DNA of 64,000 nt from Bacteroidota bacterium (GTDB taxonomy: Bacteria > Bacteroidota > Bacteroidia > 2-12-FULL-35-15). Shown piece after piece: positions 9,874 to 61,000 of this stretch. Under the pieces are notes generated by a model. It was given only the letters and a program-made list of their open reading frames with translations, ran no database searches and had not been told where the DNA came from. Each line of letters opens with the position of its first letter. Within the stretch, counting starts at the first letter, position 1. A program made the position numbers and the translations under genes. Location of the stretch: NCBI GenBank assembly GCA_947479085.1, contig CANJYB010000008.1, positions 1-64,000 of the forward strand. The letters run 5' to 3'.

Positions 9874-11130
9874 TTATGCAGGAATATAAATATCAAACGA
9901 TGCACCTTTCTTTAATTGACTTGTAGCAGTAATAACTCCATTATGGTTTTCTATTATTTTTTTAACAATTGCCAGCCCTATACCAGTGCCTCCATATACC
10001 TCTTTGCCATGAAGTTTTTGAAACACTTCAAAAATACGTTCGCTGAAATGTGGCTCGAAACCAATGCCATTGTCTTTAATAGTTATGTGGCAATAGTCTT
10101 TTACGAACGAAAGTTTTTTATTCTTTGCCGCACTTCCTTTTACTAAAATGCTCTTTATAAGTATATGCGATGGAATATCGGGTTGTGAAAACTTGAGAGC
10201 ATTGCTAATAAGATTGTACATAAGTTGGCGAAACTGAAACGGAATAATGTTAACAAAACCAAGTTCAGAAGCCTCTATGGTGGCCTTCTTTTCGAGAATA
10301 GTATCTTTTAACTCTGCTTTTACCTGATCAATAATGTTACTGAGTGATGTCTTTTCAAACTTAAGTTCGGTGGTAGTGATACGAGAAAAGGCAAGCAAAT
10401 CATCAATCAATTGCTGCATTCTTCCCGCAGCCATTTGCATTCGACCAAAATTATATTTACCGTCCTCAGATAGGTTTTTACTTTCGTTTTCCAGTATAAT
10501 GGTAACAAAGGTTTGTATTTTTCGCAGCGGTTCCTGCAAATCGTGGCTTGAAATATAGGTAAAGGCCAGCAGCTCTTTGTTAGCTATAATTAATTCGGCT
10601 GCCCGTTTTTCCTTTTCTTTATTTTGAAACAATAATTCTTTATTGGCAATAATAAGTTCTTCTGCCCTTTTTTCTTTTTCTTTGTTTTGAAAAAGTAATT
10701 CTTCATTGGCTATTATTAACTCCTCGGCTCGTTTTTCTTTTTCCTGATTTTGAAACAGCAATTCCTTATTGGCAATAATAAGTTCTCCAGCCCGCTTGCC
10801 TTTTTCTTCATCCTGAAATGCAAGTTCTATATTGGCAATACCTAACTCTTCGGCTCGTTTTCCTTTTTCTTCATCCTGGAATGCAAGTTCTATATTAGCA
10901 ATGCCCAACTCTGCAGCCCGTTTTCCCTTTTCTTCATCCTGAAACACAAGTTCTTTATTGGCAATACCCAATTCTGCTAATCGTTTTTCTTTTTCCTTCT
11001 TTAAAAAGGAAAGTTCTTTTTTTGCAATTACTAATTCCGCAGCTAGTTTTTCCTTTTCGCTTTTTTGAAAAACAAGTTCTTTTTGCGTATTGCTTAATTC
11101 TTCTACGTTTGATTTTATTTTTTTTGCCAT
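9874..11130 (-). CDS. Histidine kinase with long tandem-repeat coiled coil
   Basis: 418 residues, soluble, no transmembrane segment or PAS domain. Residues about 15-188 are eight and a bit copies of a 21-residue unit (IANKELLFQNKEKEKRAEEL with variations), forming a continuous coiled coil. It passes directly into a HisKA domain with phosphoacceptor His196 (TYISSHDLQEPLRKI) and a HATPase domain (NALKFS N box, DNGIGFEP G1, GTGIGLAIVKKI G2), so the catalytic part is complete. The SHDLQEPLRKI box is that of phytochrome-type/HWE-neighbour kinases common in Bacteroidota. It is the last gene of an operon after three single-domain receivers, which are its likely phosphoacceptor partners. The coiled coil presumably sets kinase geometry or binds another sensor. 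Confidence 0.88.
   Translation of the reverse strand: MAKKIKSNVEELSNTQKELVFQKSEKEKLAAELVIAKKELSFLKKEKEKRLAELGIANKELVFQDEEKGKRAAELGIANIELAFQDEEKGKRAEELGIANIELAFQDEEKGKRAGELIIANKELLFQNQEKEKRAEELIIANEELLFQNKEKEKRAEELIIANKELLFQNKEKEKRAAELIIANKELLAFTYISSHDLQEPLRKIQTFVTIILENESKNLSEDGKYNFGRMQMAAGRMQQLIDDLLAFSRITTTELKFEKTSLSNIIDQVKAELKDTILEKKATIEASELGFVNIIPFQFRQLMYNLISNALKFSQPDIPSHILIKSILVKGSAAKNKKLSFVKDYCHITIKDNGIGFEPHFSERIFEVFQKLHGKEVYGGTGIGLAIVKKIIENHNGVITATSQLKKGASFDIYIPA
10563..11088 (-). repeat. 63-bp tandem coding repeats
   Basis: Eight consecutive 63-bp units in the kinase gene encode 21-residue coiled-coil repeats. Units 3-5 share the variant FQDEEKGKRA and units 6-8 the variant FQN.EKEKRA, which suggests two rounds of unit duplication. 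Confidence 0.85.
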
Positions 11131-12091: not shown

Positions 12092-12544
12092 TTATTGGTT
12101 ATCACCTGTCATTTTTCTATCTATCAGTTCGGTAAGCTTTGTATGAATTATTTGCCTTAGTTCAGTATAATTAAAAGGTTTGCGAATGTATTCCAATGCT
12201 CCCATGTTAGTAAGCGTTTTGCTCATCGTTTCTTCAAAATGAATATTCCTGGGTATGGAAGTGGTTAATACAATGACAGGAAGATTTTTTAATTGTTCAT
12301 TTTGTTTTATTTCTATCAGGCATTCGAACCCGTTTTTGCGAGGCATACTGAGGTCCAGAAAAAGAAGAACAGGAAAAAATTCGTGATCAGTGGTTATGTA
12401 CTGCATCAGTTCTTCTCCATCATTCACAATGGTAAGTCGTGTTGAAATTGGAATTTCGGCCAATGCTTTTTTAAAGAAATAAATATCGTCCTTATCGTCT
12501 TCTGCGAGCAGAATAAACAGTGGTGCTTTGTGTGTGGTGTTCAT
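12092..12544 (-). CDS. Single-domain response regulator (CheY-like)
   Basis: 150 residues from ATG 12544; a receiver domain with Asp pocket (AEDDKDD), phosphoacceptor Asp64 in LFLDLSMPRKNG, Thr in VLTTSIPRN and Lys in IRKPFNY. It has an insertion of about six residues after the fourth strand compared with its two neighbours. First gene of the operon 12544-9874; the next receiver starts 9 bases after its stop. A longer TTG start at 12553 is unlikely because that TTG belongs to a near-consensus -7 box (minus strand AACCTTTG, 12551-12558), which would put the transcript start within a few bases of the ATG. Confidence 0.88.
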   Translation of the reverse strand: MNTTHKAPLFILLAEDDKDDIYFFKKALAEIPISTRLTIVNDGEELMQYITTDHEFFPVLLFLDLSMPRKNGFECLIEIKQNEQLKNLPVIVLTTSIPRNIHFEETMSKTLTNMGALEYIRKPFNYTELRQIIHTKLTELIDRKMTGDNQ

Positions 12545-12553
12545 AATTGGCAA

Positions 12554-12890
12554 AGGTTGATTTTGTGAGCATGGGGCCTGTTGTTTAATTAATTCAAAAA
12601 CTTACACAATTCACACATTGCTCCCTTTTTCCCAGCAGGTGATGGCGTGTTTCTCCTGAGCCGATTATTCAATAGCGTCTCGCCAAAAAACATAAAACTT
12701 CTTTCAATCATTCTATTTCCACTTTTTTGTCAAAGTAAACAAATATGCCTTTGACCATTGCATTAAAAAGGAGTGACCTTACCCTATAGCTCGTTCTAAG
12801 AAACAATCGAAGTGTCAATGGATTTCAATTTTCCTCATTACCTCTCACCTAAACCATCAACTTGTTGCTTTTTTAGCTTTTCTTAATTCA
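12554..12890. other. Intergenic region
   Basis: No gene recognised. It separates the receiver operon promoter from the 42-bp palindrome array that starts at 12891. Confidence 0.4.
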
Positions 12891-13420
12891 GGAATAGGGC
12901 AAGACATGTGTCTTGACACATTCCTAAGTTAGGGAATGGGCTAAGACAAGTGTCCGAGAATATTCCCTTATTCGACATAACGCCAAGACAAGTGTCTTGA
13001 CGAATTCCTTAGTTGGGGAATGGGCCAAGACAAGTGTCCGAGACTATTCCCTTATTCGACATAACGCCAAGACAAGTGTCTTGACGCATTCCTTAGTTGG
13101 GGAATGGGCTAAGACAAGTGTCCGAGACTATTCCCTTATTCGACATAAGGCCAAAACAAGTGTCTTGACGCATTCCTTAGTTGGGGAATGGGCCAAGACA
13201 AGTGTCCGAGACCATTCCCTTATTCGACATAAGGCCAAGACAAGTGTCTTGACGCATTCCTTAGTTGGGGAATGGGCTAAGACAAGTGTTCGAGACTATT
13301 CCCTTATTCGACATAAGGCCAAGACAAGTGTCCGAGCCTTATATTAATTAAGGAATGGGGCAAATGAACCTATTTGCCCTTATGTCCAATTGGGGAACGA
13401 GGCAAATGAACCTATTTGCC
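12891..13420. repeat. Array of 13 palindromic units at 42-bp spacing
   Basis: Eleven copies of a core AAGACAAGTGTC begin at 12901, 12943, 12985, 13027, 13069, 13111, 13153, 13195, 13237, 13279 and 13321, exactly 42 bases apart. Two forms alternate (followed by TTGAC or by CGAG), so the longer period is 84 bases. Each unit is an extended inverted repeat: GGAAT..GGC on the left, GCC/..CATTCC on the right, about 34 bases long, as in 12891-12924. Two final units keep the framework and spacing but carry a different palindromic core, GGCAAATGAACCTATTTGCC, at 13359-13378 and 13401-13420. No coding capacity other than an artefact of a period divisible by three. No spacer diversity, so not CRISPR. Confidence 0.92.
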
Positions 13421-13560
13421 ATATTCTGAATTTCGTAAGTCTGTAAAAATGGATTTTTTACTAAGAAAAGTGGTTGTTAGATTTAACCTGAAAAATAAAA
13501 ACAAATAAAAAAAAGAGGAAACATAACCGGTAACCATTTCAGAAGAATCATACCCCTCTC

Positions 13561-16536
13561 CTACTCGATCACATTAATATTGCCAATCCGTTTTACTGAT
13601 TTTTTATCATTAAAGGTGCAATACACCACATATACATATACCCCGAGCGGCACAGGTATGCGGTTAATGGTGCCATCCCAACCCTTGGATTTATCAATAC
13701 TTTCAAATATCAGTTCGCCCCAGCGGTTAAATACCTGCATGTGGATATCGTGAATATTGATACCATATACATAAAACACTTCGTTTCTATCATTGCCGTT
13801 CGGGGTAATGGTATTGGGAATGTATAATTCATCTTCGCCCGGCAATACGGTGATGGTAAAGTAATCGGTACTTACACAGCCGTTGGTATCTGTTCCGGTA
13901 AGGGTATAAGTGGTAGTGGTAAGTGGTGTAACAACAGGGTTTGGGCAGGCGGTACAGGATATTTCGCTGCTGTTGGAACCCGACCATACATACGAACTGC
14001 CACCTGCAGCATAAAGCTGAACGGAAGTTCCGCCCGTTACAGTAGTATCATTATTAGGAGTAGTAATAACAGGCAATGGATTTACAAAAACAATGGCGGT
14101 ATCGTTAGCAGTGCCACAGGCAGTACTTCCGGTAACGTAAAAAGTGGTGGTAACGGCAGGTGAAACAACAATGGAAGCATTGGTACTGTTGGTGCCTCCG
14201 CTCCATACATACGTGTTAGCACCGGTTGCAGTAAGGGTGGTACTTTCGCCAACACAAATGGTTTGATTACCCGCAACCGTAGGCACAGGAAAGGCAGCCA
14301 CAGCAATGGTTACACTGTCCCAATCGGTACATAGGCCTGAACCAACTGTCAGGGTATAAGTGGTGGTAGCAGCCGGAGATACGGTGATGGTGGAGTTAGT
14401 AGAAGTACTTCCCCCGCTCCACTGGTAAGGAGGCCCACCCGAACCGGTAAGAGTAACGGGTTGTCCGCCACAAATAAAAGTACCTGTATTGGCAATACTG
14501 GCAGTAGGTTGCGGAGCAGCTGTAGCGGTAACAGTGGCAGTACCTCCGGCACAGCCATTGGCTGTAGGTGTTACCGTATAGGTGACTACTCCTCCATTGG
14601 CAATATTATCCGTAATATTTCCTGTCCCATTATTAAGGTTGCTTCCCGTCCATGCAAAAGTGGCAGTGGCCACACAGGAAGTAAGCGGTATGGTGACAGG
14701 AGTTCCGGCACAAACGTTAACATTGGTGGCCTGCACATCAGGTGCAGGGTTTATGGTAATATTTTTAGGAGTTAAACCAGCAACAGTATTTCCACAAACA
14801 TCCACAATGGATGGTGGAGGAACAGCAAGTGTCTGGGTAGCTCCACAATAGGTAGGACATCCGGGTATGGTTAATAATATGGTATCTGTACCGCTGCTAT
14901 TACATCCGCTGGAAGATTGCCCGTAAGTAATACTTCCGGCAGCCCAAGGATGGGTGAGCGTATAAGGTGGCACACCATAATTGGTAATGGCCCGGAGTTT
15001 AATGGTACAACTGTCTGAACAAACAGGTGAAGGAAAAACGAACCATTGGGCCTGGGTAGTTTCAACTGTATGTCCTATAAAAAAACAATGAAACCTCCAT
15101 GGGCTGTTGGGGCTGTAATACACATAACTCAAATTGCAACCAGGCCCCAGGAAAGCCATGCGGGAAAAGTGATGAGACAAATAAAAGGACTGCGTATTGC
15201 AGGAAGGCATAAAACAACAACCCAAATAGGATTTTAAATCAGCACTATCCAGGTATGCATATCCTGCAGAATCTGCTCCCACTCCACCGGCTACATATAC
15301 GGGGGTAGTTCCGCATACATCGTTGAGGTACATTTTCCCCCAAATCATTTGTATAGGCTGAATAGGATTTACAAGGTCGGCATAATAACTGTCCCAGACT
15401 ATAAAGTTAGTAACGGTAATATTTGCAGGAACTGTAACCAGCATACTATCCGAAGACCAGTTAGGAAACTGGCAACTTGGCAACCAGCCAATGGGATAAG
15501 TGAAAGGTCCAATAACAGGAGGATACCAAGAATACGGCCCGAACACAACAGGGTCGATAGTAACAGGGAAAGCACGGGAAGCATCATTCAGCCATGCATT
15601 GGGAACTATGAGTTGCAAAATGGTTTTATTGTTTTCAAACATCAGGTTGTATTTGCCTGCCATAAAGGCCATTTTTTTATCATAATACACAGGAGTTTTT
15701 AACTGAGCCTGCACCCTTCCTGCTGCATCCATCACCACATATTCGTCCATGTCTTCCTCGCTTATCCTTGGCACTCCTTCCATAGCAAACGGAACAGGTT
15801 TTGGATTTCGCCTGATGGAATACCCCTCCGGTAAATTTATCTCTTCCGAAAAAACAAGATTTTGTTGCGAAGTGGAAACCGGTTGATGAATAATGTAATC
15901 GGTTTCTATCATATTTTCATTGAACAGAATTTTTTTGTCAATAAAAGGAACAACATTTCGGGCATACATGCCATCTTTACCTACAGTATAATCAGCAAGG
16001 TTAATTTCCTGGTTATTTATTTTACAATTGGAATTGAATTCAAAAGTCTTTTCGTAAAGTGAAATTTCTGTGCTTCCATTTCTGTTAAGAAAAGCTGGGA
16101 ACTCCTGTCTTTGGGCTTCCCAGCCATTTACGCACGAAGAAAGTTTAGGGTATAATGGTTGAAGTTGTTTATTCCGGTCATAATAATTGATGCTCTCCAA
16201 GGCGCTTTCCACCACCACCTGCCCGTCATCCGAAATGTATGTGCGCGATTTCAAAGTACGTTTGCTGAGGTCTTCAGTGCAATGTTTTTTATCCAAAGGA
16301 AATTTATCAGGAAAGAAATCTGAAGTGGTTTCTCTCTCAGAAACAGCAGAAGGATTTAATGAAGAATACATACCGGATAAGCGGGGATTATAATGCCCCA
16401 CTTTTAAGCGTGCTTCACTTTCCTGGGAAAAAGACAAAGGAACTATTCCTGAAATAAAAAAACAGGAAAGCAGCAAAACAAAAAAGTATGATTTCCTTTT
16501 AACAGGAGTATTAATTATGTATGTAAGGAACTTCAT
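13561..16536 (-). CDS. T9SS type B sorting-domain surface protein with Ig-like repeats
   Basis: 991 residues from ATG 16536 (a TTG 7 codons earlier is less likely). N-terminal positively charged stretch and a hydrophobic signal segment ending LSFSQ. Residues about 40-340 form an unassigned domain with a PVSTSQQN and TIDPVVFGPY segment reminiscent of the N-terminal part of secreted repeat proteins; a Cys-rich middle follows, then three or four Ig-like CHU repeats (ICGGQPVTLTGSG, ICVGESTTLTATGANTYVW). The last 85 residues are the gliding-motility-associated C-terminal (CHU_C) domain, with PNTITPNGNDRNEVF, MQVFNRWGELIF and GWDGT motifs: the type B signal for T9SS export to the cell surface. It is preceded by a terminator after the similar gene upstream, so it is probably transcribed separately. 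Role: likely adhesin or surface-layer component. Confidence 0.85.
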   Translation of the reverse strand: MKFLTYIINTPVKRKSYFFVLLLSCFFISGIVPLSFSQESEARLKVGHYNPRLSGMYSSLNPSAVSERETTSDFFPDKFPLDKKHCTEDLSKRTLKSRTYISDDGQVVVESALESINYYDRNKQLQPLYPKLSSCVNGWEAQRQEFPAFLNRNGSTEISLYEKTFEFNSNCKINNQEINLADYTVGKDGMYARNVVPFIDKKILFNENMIETDYIIHQPVSTSQQNLVFSEEINLPEGYSIRRNPKPVPFAMEGVPRISEEDMDEYVVMDAAGRVQAQLKTPVYYDKKMAFMAGKYNLMFENNKTILQLIVPNAWLNDASRAFPVTIDPVVFGPYSWYPPVIGPFTYPIGWLPSCQFPNWSSDSMLVTVPANITVTNFIVWDSYYADLVNPIQPIQMIWGKMYLNDVCGTTPVYVAGGVGADSAGYAYLDSADLKSYLGCCFMPSCNTQSFYLSHHFSRMAFLGPGCNLSYVYYSPNSPWRFHCFFIGHTVETTQAQWFVFPSPVCSDSCTIKLRAITNYGVPPYTLTHPWAAGSITYGQSSSGCNSSGTDTILLTIPGCPTYCGATQTLAVPPPSIVDVCGNTVAGLTPKNITINPAPDVQATNVNVCAGTPVTIPLTSCVATATFAWTGSNLNNGTGNITDNIANGGVVTYTVTPTANGCAGGTATVTATAAPQPTASIANTGTFICGGQPVTLTGSGGPPYQWSGGSTSTNSTITVSPAATTTYTLTVGSGLCTDWDSVTIAVAAFPVPTVAGNQTICVGESTTLTATGANTYVWSGGTNSTNASIVVSPAVTTTFYVTGSTACGTANDTAIVFVNPLPVITTPNNDTTVTGGTSVQLYAAGGSSYVWSGSNSSEISCTACPNPVVTPLTTTTYTLTGTDTNGCVSTDYFTITVLPGEDELYIPNTITPNGNDRNEVFYVYGINIHDIHMQVFNRWGELIFESIDKSKGWDGTINRIPVPLGVYVYVVYCTFNDKKSVKRIGNINVIE

Positions 16537-16572
16537 TAATGTTGTACGATGTTTCAATCACAAAAAAACAAT

Positions 16573-30634: not shown

Positions 30635-30823
30635 GTGGTCACGACCGCCCACCGAGTGGTCGCAACCGCCCACTGAGTGGTCGAGACTGTCCACTGAGTG
30701 GTCGAGACTGCCCACTGAGTAGTCGAGACTGCCCACTGAGTGGTCGAGACTGCCCACTGAGTGGTCGAGACTGCCCACTGTGTGGTCACGACCGCCCAAT
30801 GAGTGGGCGAGACCGCCCACTCA
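30635..30823. repeat. Array of nine units at 21-bp spacing
   Basis: Units starting GTGGTC (variants GTAGTC, GTGGGC) begin at 30635, 30656, 30677, 30698, 30719, 30740, 30761, 30782 and 30803, exactly 21 bases apart. Each is an imperfect palindrome with arms GTGG-C and G-CCAC; the last unit is the most perfect (GTGGGC...GCCCAC). Both strands are open in some frames only because 21 is divisible by three; no start, signal or codon bias suggests protein. Confidence 0.9.
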
Positions 30824-52034: not shown

Positions 52035-55000
52035 TTATTTTACGATAGTAACACTGCCCATATATTTATGGCCCTCGTTATGATTGTCGGTTAAATTAAT
52101 TAAATATACATATACATCTTCCTGCACTATACTTCCCATATAGGTTCCATTCCAATGTTTACTTATATCATCTCCGTAAAAAACCTGGTTTCCCCAACGG
52201 TCAAAAATTGTCATTTCGTATTCAGTAATGCCTTCGCCCACTCCAAAGAATTCATCATTCAAGCCATCCCCATTAGGAGAAAATGAATTTGGAACATAAA
52301 AAGTAAAAACACCTTCGATTGAAATACAATGATTAGTCGTGTCAATACAGTTCGCATTGGAAACTGTAAGCAATACGCAATAACTTCCAATTTGAGAATA
52401 TTCATGTGTAGGATTCTTAATGGTACTTGTATTGGTGGATGCATTGAAATTATCTCCGAAATCCCAGTTCCAAAGGGTTGCATCGGTAGATGTATTTGTA
52501 AAGTTAACAACCGGGTAAAGTATACTTGTTGTAAGAGGAGCAGTAAATTCAGCCACCGGCATAACGTTTACTGTTACTGTACCTGCTCCGGTACTTGAAC
52601 AGCCGGTTGTTGTTCCGGTAGCTGTATAAGTAGTTGTGGCGTCAGGTGTAACTACTATAGTATTGGAATTAGAACCGTTATTCCATAAATAACTGTTAGC
52701 TCCGGTAGCAGTCAATATTACAGAAGTACCTGCGCAAACTGTTTGTGAATTAACTGTTACAACAGGAATACTATTTACGGTTACTGTGGCAACAGCGCTG
52801 CTGCTGCATCCCAAAGTTGTTCCTGTTACTGTATAGCTTGTAGTAGTCATCGGTGAAACAGTAATAGAATCTGTAATGACTCCTGTAGACCAATTGTAAG
52901 TTGCCAAATTTCCAATTGCTATTAAAGTAGCAGACTGTCCGGTACAAATACTAAGTGAATTAAGGATTACGAAAGGTAGATTATTCACAGTAACTGTTGA
53001 AACTGCGGTTGCTGAACAACCGAGAGAAGTACCCGTTACTGTGTAAGTAGTTGTTACAACCGGAGAAGCAGTCGCTATGGTTAAACCTGTCGAAGTGGCT
53101 CCTGCACTCCAGGTATAGCTGGTGGCACCGCCTGCCGTTATTGTTGCGGAACTTCCAGCACAGATAGTTGGTGAACTAACTGTAACGCTCGGAAGAGGAT
53201 TAACAACCACAGTTATATCCGCTCTCGGACTTTCACATCCGGCTGAAGTTTGCGTAACATAATAATCTATTGTTCCTGCCACCGAAGTAGAAGGAATTGG
53301 TGCGGCAGCATTGCCTATGCCTCCTGAAGCGTTTGTATACCAGAGCAGGCTAACCCCGATTGCAGTTAATGCCGGAGCTACATCATTCTGACAATAAGTT
53401 AACGGAGAAATAACAATTGGAGCAGTAGGAGCACTGATAACGACATTATACGTAACACCTGCCCCGGCACCGCATGTACCAGTCTCAGTAACTGAAATTG
53501 CACCTGCTCCGGCAGCACCAAAAGTGACAGTAATTTGATTTGTTCCTTGTCCCGCTGTAATAGCAGCTCCTGCAGGAACTGTCCATGCATAAGTACTCCC
53601 AACGGTATTGGTAACAGAATAAATTATTCCTGTTGCATTTGGACAAACAGGAGTTGTGCCAGTTATTGCAGAAGTAACAGGCAGTTGAGTAACTGTAACA
53701 TTAAAGTTAACAGCTGTTCCTGGTCCGCAATTATTTGTTTCGATAACGGAAACAGTTCCACCAGTCGTTCCAAAATCAACTGTTATTTGATTGGTGCCTT
53801 GTCCTGCTGTGATGATTGCACCTGCAGGAACTGTCCAGTTGTAAGTATCTCCAACAACATTGGTAACTGAATAGGTTATTCCGGTTGAATTCAGACAAAC
53901 AGGTGTAGTTCCTGTAATAGCTGATGTTGCAGGTAATGATGAAATAGCAACTGCGAAATTAACCTGGGTTCCGGGTCCGCAATTATTTGTTTCTATTACG
54001 GAAACATTTCCTGCTGTTACTCCCAAATCAACTGTAACCTGATTTGTACCCTGACCAGAGGTAATAGTTGCTCCTGCCGGAACCGCCCATGCATAAGTGT
54101 TTCCAATGGTATTAGTAACAGAATAAATTACTCCGGTTGCGTTCGGACAAACAGGTGTAGTTCCGGTAATAGCTGATGTTACAGGCAATGGGAAAATAGC
54201 AACAGCAAAATCAACCTGTGTTCCCGGTCCGCAATTATTAGTTTCTATCACAGAAACATTTCCTGCAGTTCCTCCAAAGTCAACTGTAATCTGGTTTGTA
54301 CCCTGACCAGAAGTAATAGTTGCTCCAGCTGGAACTGTCCATGTATATGTATCGCCCACGGTATTAATAACTGAAAAAACAACTCCGGTTGCAGTAGGGC
54401 ATACAGGTGTAGTGCCTGTAATAACTAATGTTGCAGGTAGTGAGGAAATAACAATAGGTAAGTTAACTACAGTGGAAGCCCCGCAAATATTAGTTTCAGT
54501 GACAGAAACATTACCTGCTGTAGCGCCAAAATCAACAGTTAACTGGTTGGTTCCCTGACCTGCTGTAATAGTTGCTCCTGCCGGAACAATCCAGGCATAG
54601 GTGTTACCAGTATTATTCGTTACGGAATAGGCAAGTCCTGTTGCATTCGGGCAAACGGGAGAGGTGCCTGTAATAGCAGACGTGGCAGGTGCGTTTATAA
54701 ATGTAACCACAAAATTAATGGCAACTCCAACACCGCAGGAAGCTGTTTCAGTGACAGAAATTGTTCCTGCTGTGGCACCAAAATCAACTGTTATTTGATT
54801 GGTTCCTTGTCCTGAAGTTATTGTTGCACCAAAAGGAGCTGTCCATGCATAGGTACTTCCTGTTGTATTGATAACAGAAAAAGTTATTCCTGTTGCATTC
54901 GGACAAACAAGTGCGGTCCCTGTAATAGGAGATGTAACTGGCAACACTGTTATTCCAAGAGCCAGGTTAACTGCAGCACCACTGCCGCAAACATTTGATT

Positions 55001-58000
55001 CAATTACAGAAATAGTTCCAGCTGTAATTCCAAAGTCAACCGTTATTTGATTTGTTCCTTGTCCTGCTGTAATGGTAGCACCTGCCGGAACTGTCCATGC
55101 ATAAGAACTTCCGACAACATTGGTTACCGAATATACAATTCCAGTAGCGTTCAAACAAACAGGTGAAGGGCCTACGATAGCAGAAGTTACAGGGATAGGA
55201 GTAATAGCAACAGCGAAATTAACGGTAGTTCCAGGGCCACAATTATTCGTTTCAACTACTGAAACATTTCCTCCTGTTCCTGCAAAAGTTACTGTAATTT
55301 GATTGGTTCCCTGCCCTGCTGTAATAATTGCACCAGCCGGAACTGTCCAGTTATAAGTATCTCCGGCAACGTTAGTAACTGAATAAATAATTCCTGACGC
55401 AGTAGGGCATACAGGAGTAGTTCCTGTAATAACAGATGTTACAGGAAGTGTAGAAATAACAATAGGTAAATTAACCACAGTATTAGCTCCGCAAATATTG
55501 GTTTCCGTGACAGAAACATTTCCTGCTGTGGCACCAAAGTCAATAGTTATCTGATTCGTGCCTTGCCCCGAGGTAATGTTAGCGCCTACGGGGACTGTCC
55601 ATGCATAAGTATTACCGGCATTATTTGTAACGGAATATATAACGCCTGTTGCATTTGGGCAAACTGGTGTGGCACCTGCAATAGCAGATGTAGCAGGCGC
55701 TGTAATAGATGAAACAGCAAAATTAACTGTAGCTCCAACTCCGCAGGATGCAGTTTCAGCAACAGAAATTGTGCCTGCTGTGGCACCAAAATCAACTGTT
55801 ATTTGGTTGCTACCTTGACCGGAAGTTATTGTTGCACCAACAGGAGCTGTCCATGCATAGGTACTTCCTGTACTATTAATTACAGAAAAAATAATCCCTG
55901 TTGCATTCGGGCAAACAGGTGAAGTACCCGTGATAGCTGATGTTATCGGCAATACCGTAATTCCAAGTGCTAAATTAACAGCAGCACCACTGCCGCAAAC
56001 ATTTGATTCAATTACAGAAATAGTTCCAGTTGTAATTCCAAAGTCAACTGTTATTTGATTTGTTCCTTGTCCTGCTGTAATGGTAGCACCTGCCGGAACT
56101 GTCCATGCATAAGAACTTCCGACAACATTGGTTACCGAATATACAATTCCTGTTGCGTTCAAACAAACAGGTGAAGGACCTACGATAGCAGAAGTTACAG
56201 GGATGGGAGTAATAGCAACAGCAAAATTAACGGCAGTTCCAGGGCCACAATTATTCGTTTCAACTACTGAAACATTTCCTCCTGTTCCTGCAAAAGTTAC
56301 TGTAATTTGATTGGTTCCCTGCCCTGCTGTAATAATTGCACCAGCCGGAACTGTCCAGTTATAAGTATTTCCGGCAACATTAGTAACTGAATAAATAATT
56401 CCTGATGCAGTAGGGCATACCGGTGTAGTTCCGGTAATAGTTGATGTAACAGGTAATGGTGATATTGCAACTGCAAAAATTACGGCTGTGCCGGGTCCAC
56501 AATTATTTGATTCAATAACCGAAACATTCCCTGCTGTTCCTGCAAAAGTTACTGTAATTTGATTTGTACCTTGCCCGGAAGTAATTACTGCCCCTGCCGG
56601 CACTGTCCATGCATAAGTATTTCCAACCGTATTGGTAACAGAATAAATAACTCCTGTTGCATTAGGACAAACAGGAGTTGTGCCTGTTATTATGGATGTA
56701 ACCGGAAGCTGAGTCACCGCAACTGCAAAGTTGACAGCCGTTCCGGGACCGCAATTATTTGATTCGATAACGGAAACAGTTCCGGAGGTTGCTCCAAAAT
56801 TAACTGTAATTTGATTAGTGCCTTGTCCGGCTGTAATGGTTGCACCTGCGGGCACAGTCCATGCATAAGTGTTTCCAATTGTATTAGTAACAGAATAAAT
56901 TACTCCTGTTGAATTCAAACAAACAGGAGTAGTGCCGGTTATTGCTGATGTTGCTGGTAAAGACGAAATAGCTACTGCAAAATTAACCGCAGGTCCTGGT
57001 CCGCACATATTTGTTTGGATTACAGAAACTGTTCCTCCTGTCACTCCCCAATTTACTGTAATTTGATTTGTTCCTTGCCCGGCTGTAATGGTTGCTCCGG
57101 CTGGCACTGTCCATGCATAGGTATCACCCGCAACGTTGGTCACAGAATAAATTATTCCTGTTGCATTCGGACAAACTGGTGTTGTTCCTGTAATGGCTGA
57201 TGTTACAGGCAATGGGAAAATGCTTACAGGAAAGTTAACAGTTGCTCCAACTCCGCATGATGCGGTTTCCGTAACCGAAACATTTCCTCCGGATGAACCC
57301 CAATTAACTGTTATTTGATTTGTTCCCTGTCCTGCCGTTATAGTTGCACCAGCCGAAACTGTCCATGCATAGGTGCTTCCAGCAGAATTGATAACTGAAA
57401 AAGTTAAACCTGTAGAATTTGAACAAACGGACGAAGTACCTGTTATAGCAGATGTTACAGGTAATAATGTAATAGCAACAGGAAGATTTACTGCTGCCCC
57501 GATTCCACAAACATTCGATTCGATAACGGAAACAGTACCCCCGGTGGCACCCCAATTAATTGTTACCTGGTTTGTACCTTGCCCTGAGGTGATAACTCCA
57601 CTTCCGGTTACAGACCAGTTATAGGTATTTCCAGCCACATTGGTTACGGAATAAACGATTGCCGTTGAATTTGCACAAACAGGTGAAGGACCTGTAATAA
57701 CAGAAGTTACAGGAATAGGAGTAACAACCAATGCAAAATTAACTGCTGGTCCCGGTCCGCAAATATTGGTTTCTATAACAGAAATAGTTCCACCTGTTGC
57801 TCCAAAATTAACTGTAATCTGATTAGTTCCTTGTCCTGAAGTAATTGTTGCTCCCGCAGGAACTGTCCAGTTATAAGTATCACCAACCACATTCGTTACT
57901 GAATAAATTACTCCTGTTGTGTTAGGGCAAACGGGTGTAGTGCCTGTAATAGCAGATGTTACAGGTAATGGAGTTATTGCAACAGCAAAGTTAACTGCTA

Positions 58001-61000
58001 CTCCCGGTCCGCAAATATTTGTTTGAGTTACCGAAACATTTCCTCCAATACCGCCCCAATTCACTGTTATCTGATTTGTTCCCTGTCCTGCAGTAATTGT
58101 TGCTCCGGCCGGAACTGTCCAGTTATAAGTATCTGCGGCAACATTGGTTACAGAATAAACGACTCCTGTCTGTGTCGGACAAACGGGGGTAACACCTGTA
58201 ATGGCAGATGTTACAGGTAATGGAAAAATGGCTACCGCAAAATTTACTGCTACACCCGGACCGCAATTATTTGTTTCAATTACAAAAACGGTTCCACCTG
58301 TTCCTGCAAAAGTTACTGTAATCTGATTGGTTCCCTGACCAGATGTGATGGTCGCTCCTGCAGGAACAGTCCAGTTATAAGTATTTCCAACAACATTGGT
58401 GACAGAATAGATAACTCCCGCTGCGGTTGGGCAAACAGGTGTAGTGCCAGTAATAGCTGATGTTACAGGCAATTGAGTTACTGTTACCGGTAAAATAACG
58501 GCCGGTCCTGGTCCGCAAATATTTGTTTGTACCACAGTAACATTTCCACTGGTCACACCCCAGTTTACAGTTATTTGATTGGTTCCTTGCCCGGCTGTGA
58601 TGGTTGCTCCGGCTGGTACAGTCCAGTTATAAGTATCTCCTGCAACATTGGTTACAGAATAAACGACTCCTGTCGAATTAAGACAAACTGGAGTAGTGCC
58701 TGTTATTGCAGAAGTTACAGGTAATGGAGTTATAGCCACAGCAAAGTTAACTGCTGTTCCGGATCCGCAGGTGTTGGTTTCTGTAACCGAAACATTACCG
58801 CCTGTTCCTGCAAATGTAACGGTTATCTGATTAGTTCCTTGTCCTGCAGTAATGATAGCACCAGCCGGAACAGTCCATGCATAGGTGTCACCAGGAACAT
58901 TGGTTACTGAATAAACAACTCCTGCTGCGGTTGGGCATACGGGTGTGGTTCCTGTGATGGAAGAAGTAACAGGCAGAGGAGTAACTGCAACAGCATAATT
59001 CACTGACGCACCGGAACCGCAAACATTTGTTTGCACGACTGAAACAGTGCCACTGGCAGCACCCCAGGTTACAGTTATTTGATTGGTTCCCTGACCTCCT
59101 GTAATGGTTGCTCCGACCGGAACGATCCAGGCATAAGTATCTCCCGGAACATTGGTAACGGAATAAACTAGACCTGTCTGGTTTGCACAAACAGGCGTGA
59201 CACCGGCAATGGCAGAGGTTACCGGCAATGGGAAAATTGCTAAAGGAAAGTTAACTGCCGGAGCAACCCCACAGGGATTACTTTGAATAACTGAAACATT
59301 TCCACCTGTTCCTGCAAAGTCAACTGTTATCTGATTAGACCCTTGTCCGGCTGTAATGGCTGCCCCTGCCGGCACAGTCCAGTTATAGGTACTTAGTGCG
59401 ACATTGGCAACAGAAAAAATAATACCGGTGGCATTTGGACATACTGGTGTAGTTCCCGTAATTGCCGTTGCTACAGGCAAAGGGGTCATGGTAACTAAAA
59501 AGGTGATAGCAGGGTCGCTTCTGCAAATATTAGATTGAACAACGGATACCGTTCCTGCGATTGCACCAAAGTTGACCGTTATTTGATTTGTTCCTTGTCC
59601 TGAAGTAATTGTTGCCCCTGCAGGTACTGCCCAGGTATAGGTAATTCCGACTGTATTGGGAATCAAATATACCATCCCGGTTGCATTCGGACAAACCGGA
59701 GTTGGACCAGAAATAAGGCCTGGCACAATGGCTACTCCATTAATGGTGACAACAACAGGTTTACGATAGGTACCAGGACAAAATCCTGCATAGTAAGTGG
59801 TGGTTGCAAATAAAGGAGGGGTGGTGAATGTTGTCCCAGTTGCTATAGGAGCACCTCCTACCAGGGTGTTGTACCAATAGATGGTAGCTCCTATAGGACC
59901 AGCAATAGATGCAGTAAGTGTTGCCGTATTCCCGTTACAAATTGTAACATTGGTTGTTGTTATGGTGTCATGAGTTATCACCTGATTAGTTAATCCTGCT
60001 GCACCTTTTGTGGCTCCATTGGGTGGAAATTCAGTAAGCCCTCCCGCGTTGGTTGTCCCACTTCCTCCTCCATTCGAAATTTGTGTAAATACTCCTCCAG
60101 ATTGGGCAATGTAGCCGGCACCACCGCCACCACCAGGTCCTTCTGATTCAATAATTCCTGCAACAAGCATTTGATTCCCACCGGTACCTCCATTAACAGA
60201 TGCGGTAATTCCGGAAATCGGACCAACTGAATTCAATATAATTGTACCACCGCCACCTGCACCACCAGCTCCATCCCCTCCGGCATTCAGGCAATTACCC
60301 CCATGTGAAACAACAGAACCTATCCCACTTATATTTCCATAACTCATAAAATAAATTAATCCTCCCCCGGCCTGACCAACGCCACCTGTTGAATTATCCC
60401 TGTCTCCGGCACCACCGCCACCACCCATAAATAACTTTCCTGTTGAATAATCCAGGTTTCGTCCTCCCAAACCACCATTTGCCAGCCTGTTATCTCCTCC
60501 CCAAAGCGGATTATTTGGTCCGATAAGTGTCGCATCCTGATTATTTAAAGCTGTGGAATATCCTCCCCTTCCTCCTCCCGGTGAAGTATGCAAAGCAAAT
60601 CCGGGAGCTTCCAGGTTCCATGCATTTACCCATCCGGCACCACCACTCACATCAGGATTTCCCAAACCATCCCATCCAATAAGAGAGCCTGCATTCGAAC
60701 CTCCGCCACCTCCGGAATTTTTACAATCGCCTCCTCCACCTGCATTTGCAGCTGAACCTCTTCCGTATTGTCCTCCCATCGAATTGTAATCCGACTGGTA
60801 TCCTCCTATTCCTTCCCCTTTATTTGAACCTATTGTATAACTTGTTCCGGCAAATTGTGAACCACCGAACCCAGCAGGATTATTGGTAGCCAGGCCACCT
60901 CCTCTGAAACCAATTGCTGATGCTGTAATTCCGGCAACAACATTAATTACAGTATTATACTGAACTTCAATGGCTATTACGCCACCTACATAAGCAGCTC

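Follow-up and report, generated by a model that had tools for sequence, protein, structure and literature searches.

The window, meaning the whole analysed stretch of 64,000 nucleotides from a Bacteroidota bacterium (genome G000), holds at positions 12887-13432 an array of 13 units of 42 bp, 11 with the core ACA(A/T)GTGT and two with the core GGCAAATGAACCTATTTGCC. Three Response_reg proteins and a histidine kinase lie on one side of the array and two CHU_C surface proteins on the other; this Pfam annotation of the neighbours confirms the location between a receiver operon and surface-protein genes that a first-pass annotation had given. The features are listed below, with 21n denoting any period of 21 bp or a whole multiple of it.

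12092..12553, - strand: receiver-domain protein (Response_reg, Pfam PF00072), first gene of the receiver/kinase operon, 5' end towards the array
12868..12902, + strand: left terminal inverted repeat (TIR) TTTTTTAGCTTTTCTTAATTCAGGAATAGGGCAA, from local alignment against the reverse complement of the right end
12887..13348, no strand: eleven 42-bp units with the ACA(A/T)GTGT core and two alternating flank forms (84-bp period)
13349..13432, no strand: two 42-bp units with the core GGCAAATGAACCTATTTGCC in a GGGAAT-type frame as in the preceding units
13416..13450, - strand: right terminal inverted repeat TTGCCATATTCTGAATTTCGTAAGTCTGTAAAAA, from the TIR alignment
13561..16557, - strand: CHU_C type IX secretion surface protein (Pfam PF13585), 3' end towards the array
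30635..30821, no strand: 21-bp array, 8.9 copies of GTGGTCGAGACTGCCCACTGA, of the palindromic CCCAC..GTGGG family; the second 21n array in the window

The window also contains coding repeats. A 63/126-bp repeat in a histidine kinase gene (10574-11002; units of about 21 amino acids, ..EKRAEELIIANKELLFQNKE.., 21n) has matches in many congeneric genomes, array-poor ones among them, and a very long tandem repeat (252 bp x 23.7) fills a large ORF at 53518-59477.

The 11 palindromic ACA(A/T)GTGT cores start at 12901, 12943, 12985 and so on to 13321, each step being exactly 42 bp, as originally reported. Nine of them open with AAGACAAGTGT, the first with AAGACATGTGT and the one at 13153 with AAAACAAGTGT. 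TRF finds 5.2 copies of an 84-bp period with 94% matches, so that the alternation of two flank forms (A/B), proposed along with the true period of 84, is real. The intervals between the cores are thus themselves repeats rather than unique spacers, which rejects a CRISPR array and bears out the initial judgement on this point. The two GGCAAATGAACCTATTTGCC units, at 13359 and 13401, are 42 bp apart, and their dyads (13368 and 13410) follow the last ACA dyad (13327) by 41 bp and then 42 bp more; the swapped core, described at the outset as keeping nearly the same phase, therefore involves a shift of 1 bp. Dyads in the array actually recur every 21 bp, since regular tandem repetition of a palindrome gives rise to a further dyad in the linker; the 42-bp unit consists of a 21-mer and, after it, the imperfect reverse complement of that 21-mer.

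An imperfect TIR pair (12868-12902 and 13416-13450) bounds the element. Its local alignment with the reverse complement scores 16.0, a value reached in none of 500 shuffles (maximum 13.5). The element reaches beyond the extent first assigned to it, 12891-13420, to about 12868-13450. Both core types lie between the TIRs, which places the core switch inside a single element; the switch as a separate feature is ruled out by the enclosing TIR and by mixed or adjacent core types elsewhere (contig C13).

The 42-bp family and its turnover in the genus

A covariance model built from 44 units was run, together with DNA searches, over the 4.28 Mb (50 contigs) of the genome. Nine 42-bp arrays were found, all of them intergenic: C8:12.9k (in the window), C8:145.9k, C5:127k, C5:176k, C10:52.5k, C13:57.6k, C13:58.0k, C17:19.9k and C20:2.9k. 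Beyond these, the model gives a single match in 4.28 Mb (E=0.8). Chance is excluded because a palindromic model finds nine arrays and little else. The arrays share a frame, into which an array-specific palindromic core from a few classes (ACAAGTGT, AAATGAATCC/AAAAGGATTC) is set; the GGCAAATGAACCTATTTGCC class also fills arrays of C13, C20, C5:127k, C10 and the congeneric genome G004. A leader AAAATGCTGATTATGTGTAATATGCAGTTA and a tail TGTTGGACATAAGGCCAAAANAAAAAAAGTAG are common to several arrays of the genome. The other 21n array in the window also belongs to a dispersed family: CCCAC..GTGGG arrays occupy about five places (window 30635-30821, C1:93.9k, C1:118.3k, C9:81.7k and C30:48.3k) and share a conserved tail, CTCATNGGTCTTGCAAACGTGA.TTAATTTAAAG.

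Other repeats adjoin some of these arrays. Beside the C13 arrays lies a dispersed hairpin repeat, GCCTTTGTTGGTGTTTTCGCCAACAAACGCTGAATGAAGTTTAGTTCG..CCTGCAAAGGCATAAAA (L014:900-1020 and 1280-1380), with dozens of partial matches across the genome. On C17, a 42/21-bp array of different sequence, AAAGACCTTTTTGTTATAAACAAAGACCTTTCTTTCATACCG (L013:583-836), sits between divergent genes and directly adjoins a decayed copy, two units long, of the ACAAGTGT family.

The search of relatives that had been suggested for the frame, with a listing of the cores, extends the family to sister species with cores of their own. The covariance model detects more intergenic arrays of 42-bp period in G004 and G015, with the cores GGCAAATGAGTTCATTTGGC, AAAACAACTGTTTT, TTAAAGAGTTCTTTAA, CCAAATCANTTGATTTGG and AGACAACTGTCT; the G015 arrays have their own common ends, the first unit ending in CTATGTCAAG and the last beginning with CTTGACAT. 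Over 104 units from 14 arrays, mean unit identity is 46% between arrays vs 70% within arrays, and the 42-bp register is kept. A few arrays contain 1-bp slips (periods 83 and 41; a 125-bp lag in L098). The relatives do not show the non-phased spacing that had been named in advance as refuting the functional reading. The constancy of 42 bp within the family is partly selected, because the collecting model was built on 42-bp units; the TRF survey described below is the independent test. A scan of GTDB genomes for GGGAAT three times at 42 bp returned mostly heptamer or coding repeats and one look-alike array. This array, L118:2536-2751 of Bacteroidetes bacterium isolate RH-15aug16-189, has a GGGAAT..TTCCC frame at 42 bp with a third core, GTTCTCCTCGAACGAGAAAG.

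The two arms of the palindromes change together. Across units, 91 cells are changed on both sides, compared with 48.3 +/- 4.9 in shuffles, and this co-variation is lost when the partner is slid by 1-3 columns, a control that leans towards structure because the alignment is already in register with it. The proposal of a modular palindromic array, in which cores are interchangeable within a conserved frame, is accordingly sustained by its recurrence in nine arrays and in sister species and by the paired changes of the arms.

Another reading places the role at the RNA level: transcribed palindromes would form an array of hairpins that stabilise mRNA 3' ends, terminate transcription or serve for processing. 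Strong folding is predicted for several single units (z -3 to -6), others do not fold, and the window array does lie downstream of a CHU_C gene. Wobble mispairs, however, show no strand preference (GT 110 vs AC 127), divergent genes enclose 18 of 45 arrays, so that there is no preference for 3' ends, and the constant linker length is not needed by such a structure. The hairpin variant of the functional reading is weakened by the balanced mispairs and the frequent divergent-gene sites, and we consider it improbable. A terminator or 3'-end role is rejected on gene-context counts, which do not favour convergent sites, and an Rfam search gave no family at gathering score, only chance matches.

At orthologous sites the arrays turn over. 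Beside their orthologues of the CHU_C gene adjoining the window array, G015 and G005 have different 21n arrays, and G004 has none. The flanks of other G000 arrays were also followed into four sister genomes. Of 30 such comparisons, 7 show a 21n array of unrelated sequence at a distance of up to about 600 bp, the background for gene ends in general being 7.8% (P ~0.007, the comparisons not being fully independent). The longer-period arrays at orthologous sites all have periods of 21, 42, 63 or 105 bp, and there are in addition one 7-bp and one 24-bp overlapping row. Orthologous spots are either empty with diverged flanks or occupied by other arrays, and a clean empty site is not among them. In G004, about 400 bp separate the 42-bp array at C4:12.3k from the orthologue of a gene that flanks the C5:127k array of G000, an apparent case of vertical inheritance.

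Periods of the non-coding arrays

The period survey applied TRF (score >=110) to stretches sampled without regard to arrays (461 kb of G000, 400 kb of G015, 220 kb of G004 and 140 kb of G045, plus controls), and arrays in long ORFs were set aside. In these four genomes of the genus, the period is a multiple of 21 bp in 55 of the 77 non-coding tandem arrays (22/29 in G000, 19/29 in G015, 12/17 in G004 and 2/2 in contig C56 of G045; binomial P ~1e-29 even against a multiple-of-3 null), figures that come from draft, related genomes and non-random contigs with a simple ORF filter against coding arrays. The survey is not perfectly blind, because G004 contigs C35 and C7 and G015 contigs C2 and C4 had each earlier shown one array or array-flanking gene; leaving out single arrays does not change the picture. 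By contrast, none of the eight arrays from array-poor congeners (G002, G009, G010, G016 and contig C5 of G045) and other families is 21n. Extrapolated from the samples, a G000-type genome would hold about 200 arrays.

The 21n arrays are unrelated in sequence (for example, AACCTCCCACTGAGTGGGAAC, CTCAAAAACATATTTTGAGCC, AATAGTACTATTTAAACTTTG and TGTCAAAGCAATCCGTTTGGA). About half of them are significantly palindromic against column-shuffled controls and about half are not, so it is the period, rather than the palindrome, that is the general feature. The initial claim of helical phasing, namely, that 42 bases equal four turns, is strongly reinforced by the 21n periods of non-coding arrays across several genomes.

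A period of 21 nt is also that of seven amino acids, and 21n is natural for coiled-coil genes; the array could then be a protein-coding heptad repeat, given that its + strand has an open frame of 139 codons (12928-13347) and that genuine 63-bp coding repeats occur nearby in the kinase gene. That frame has no ATG start, however, stops interrupt each of the six frames over the full length of the window array, and a palindromic unit is unexpected in coding DNA. Furthermore, of the 32 arrays in which every frame is likewise interrupted, 19 are still 21n (P ~5e-9). The coding explanation is hardly credible, and it is rejected for the window array and for the six-frame-stop set. As a separate observation, coding tandem arrays in the sample of G045 contig C56 (L367-L373) are 21n in 9 of 13 cases (63 bp five times, 126 bp twice, 42 bp and 84 bp), so the excess may reach coding DNA as multiples of seven amino acids.

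Comparison with known repeats

The closest described kind is the minisatellite-bearing MITE represented by BrickBuilt and PgRS/MITE464 of Porphyromonas gingivalis, with units of 23 bp and 41 bp and TIRs that match IS5 elements (PMC4596501). Both systems are found in Bacteroidota and consist of a dispersed intergenic leader, a tandem minisatellite and a tail with short inverted ends, the body varying in copy number and being predicted to form stem loops. The dispersed intergenic copies of a tandem body are represented here by the nine 42-bp arrays and the five or so places of the CCCAC family, and the conserved flanking parts by the leader AAAATGCTGATTATGTGTAATATGCAGTTA, the tail TGTTGGACATAAGGCCAAAANAAAAAAAGTAG and, for the small inverted ends, the TIR of the window element. 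The differences are that the BrickBuilt/PgRS units are not 21n, that each of those families has one repeat sequence without interchangeable cores, and that no genome-wide period rule has been described for them. Neither their unit nor an IS5-like TIR such as GAGACCTTTGCA is present in the window element, whose unit is 42 bp and whose TIR is AATTCAGGAATA-like; no parent IS was identified.

REP elements and BIMEs resemble the arrays in being short extragenic palindromes of alternating orientation in many copies, and Y1 transposase genes are present in the genome, so that mobilisation of BIME/REP-like palindromes by a REP-associated tyrosine transposase (RAYT) has to be weighed. The arrays, unlike REPs, have strict two-turn spacing and array-specific sequence, and they lack a GTAG/CGTC tag at the side of the palindrome: the 104 units contain 5 GTAG/CTAC and 7 CGTC/GACG matches, all scattered. 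A link to RAYT is not apparent either, in that Y1 genes (PF01797, 36 genomes) do not follow array richness, with two each in the array-rich G004 and G015 and ten or eleven in the array-poor G016 and G022. The GTAG and CGTC families of REPs favour unidirectional and convergent sites (PMC3733652), a preference that the arrays do not share. RAYT/REP mobilisation is contradicted by the tag and Y1 co-occurrence tests, which bear out the early statement that no known REP element is matched, and is very improbable.

Heptamers are another kind of abundant short intergenic direct repeat, and 21 is 3 x 7. TAACTGA and other heptamer repeats occur in Beggiatoaceae, Cyanobacteria and Bacteroidetes as a 7-bp unit of one sequence near start codons (PMC4679880). 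Like the arrays, they are confined to few lineages; the base unit here, however, is 21 bp, in many sequences, and 7n periods other than 21n are rare among the high-scoring arrays of the TRF survey. A perfect 7-bp tandem repeat, GGAATTA, was seen in an array-poor congener (G043:C36:110300-110416).

Plasmid iterons are Rep-binding repeats spaced about two helical turns apart. The likeness lies in tandem sites at about 21-22 bp that place proteins on one helix face, and the 21n periods do amount to an integral number of helical turns. The arrays differ in being chromosomal, many per genome and unrelated in sequence, and at the window locus no replication initiator gene adjoins the array, the neighbours being receiver, kinase and CHU_C genes. 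Searches of the literature for intergenic arrays of Bacteroidetes with 21-bp units or helical phasing found nothing matching.

Possible origins of the two-turn register

What has to be explained is directly established: the element with its TIRs, the family to which it belongs, the rule of 21n periods across several genomes, the array-specific cores with compensatory changes and the turnover at orthologous sites. Dispersed non-coding arrays that differ almost wholly in sequence and are yet nearly always built of 21n units hint at an undescribed DNA-level process or a DNA-binding scaffold. The explanation we prefer, tentatively and at somewhat less than an even chance, is a helically phased scaffold, acting at the DNA level, for a putative dimeric protein, carried on a MITE-like, rapidly turning-over element. 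The window array is one copy of such a dispersed intergenic element, its tandem body built on a 21-bp, two-turn module that is used here as alternating inverted 21-mers, giving the 42-bp palindromic unit with a dyad each 21 bp. A putative dimeric or oligomerising DNA-binding or architectural protein might contact one module after another along the same helix face, and the two-turn register would persist because of these contacts. Length and, in many arrays, dyad symmetry would then be constrained and base sequence would not; if recognition relies less on base sequence than on geometry and dyad symmetry, arrays could change in sequence but would have to keep 21n. Unequal exchange or gene conversion would homogenise each array, and recombination within the shared frame may join arrays with different cores, which could have produced the core switch in the window.

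Several observations count in favour of this scaffold: the exact 42-bp arrays with different cores in the genome and in sister species, the 21n excess in the TRF survey (55 of 77, and 19 of 32 where every frame has stops, against 0 of 8 in the controls), the 42-bp register kept in all 14 arrays at 46% between-array identity, the arm co-variation (91 vs 48 cells) with balanced wobble pairs, and the 21n arrays at orthologous sites of sister species (7/30). Against it count the lack of a candidate protein, none having been found, the possibility that the arrays owe their period to inheritance or to the mutational process generating them, the fact that most relatives in the genus do well without arrays, and the non-palindromic half of the 21n arrays together with the few 1-bp slips.

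A close rival, quite possible in our estimate, is that the arrays are functionless or selfish minisatellite elements that arise and become homogeneous through slippage or unequal exchange. Their 21-bp modules would happen to come from a replication or recombination process peculiar to the lineage, or from a mobile element that seeded them, and quasi-palindromes would be perfected by hairpin template switching. The fast sequence turnover, the confinement to part of one genus, the absence from some orthologous sites, the dispersed families with leader, tail or TIR and the close analogy to BrickBuilt/PgRS of P. gingivalis (PMC4596501) all fit such an account, which, however, taken alone leaves the 21n periods in unrelated sequences of four species and the modest recurrence at orthologous sites unexplained.

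There is a real chance that the geometric (21n) rule itself is something new. A bolder and rather unlikely form of the idea is a class of chromosomal elements that are free to change in sequence and conserved in geometry, with very many intergenic arrays (about 200 per genome) and a module that would be held at two turns by a putative chromatin-like protein reading shape or dyads or by a dedicated enzyme building 21-bp modules. Bacterial minisatellites are normally seen as neutral or as copy-number switches, with a unit length that is arbitrary. When the unrelated intergenic repeats of one clade converge on exact multiples of two turns, the clade offers a natural experiment, and this convergence points either to a chromosomal protein that reads geometry and not sequence or to a particular mechanism by which tandem repeats are born.
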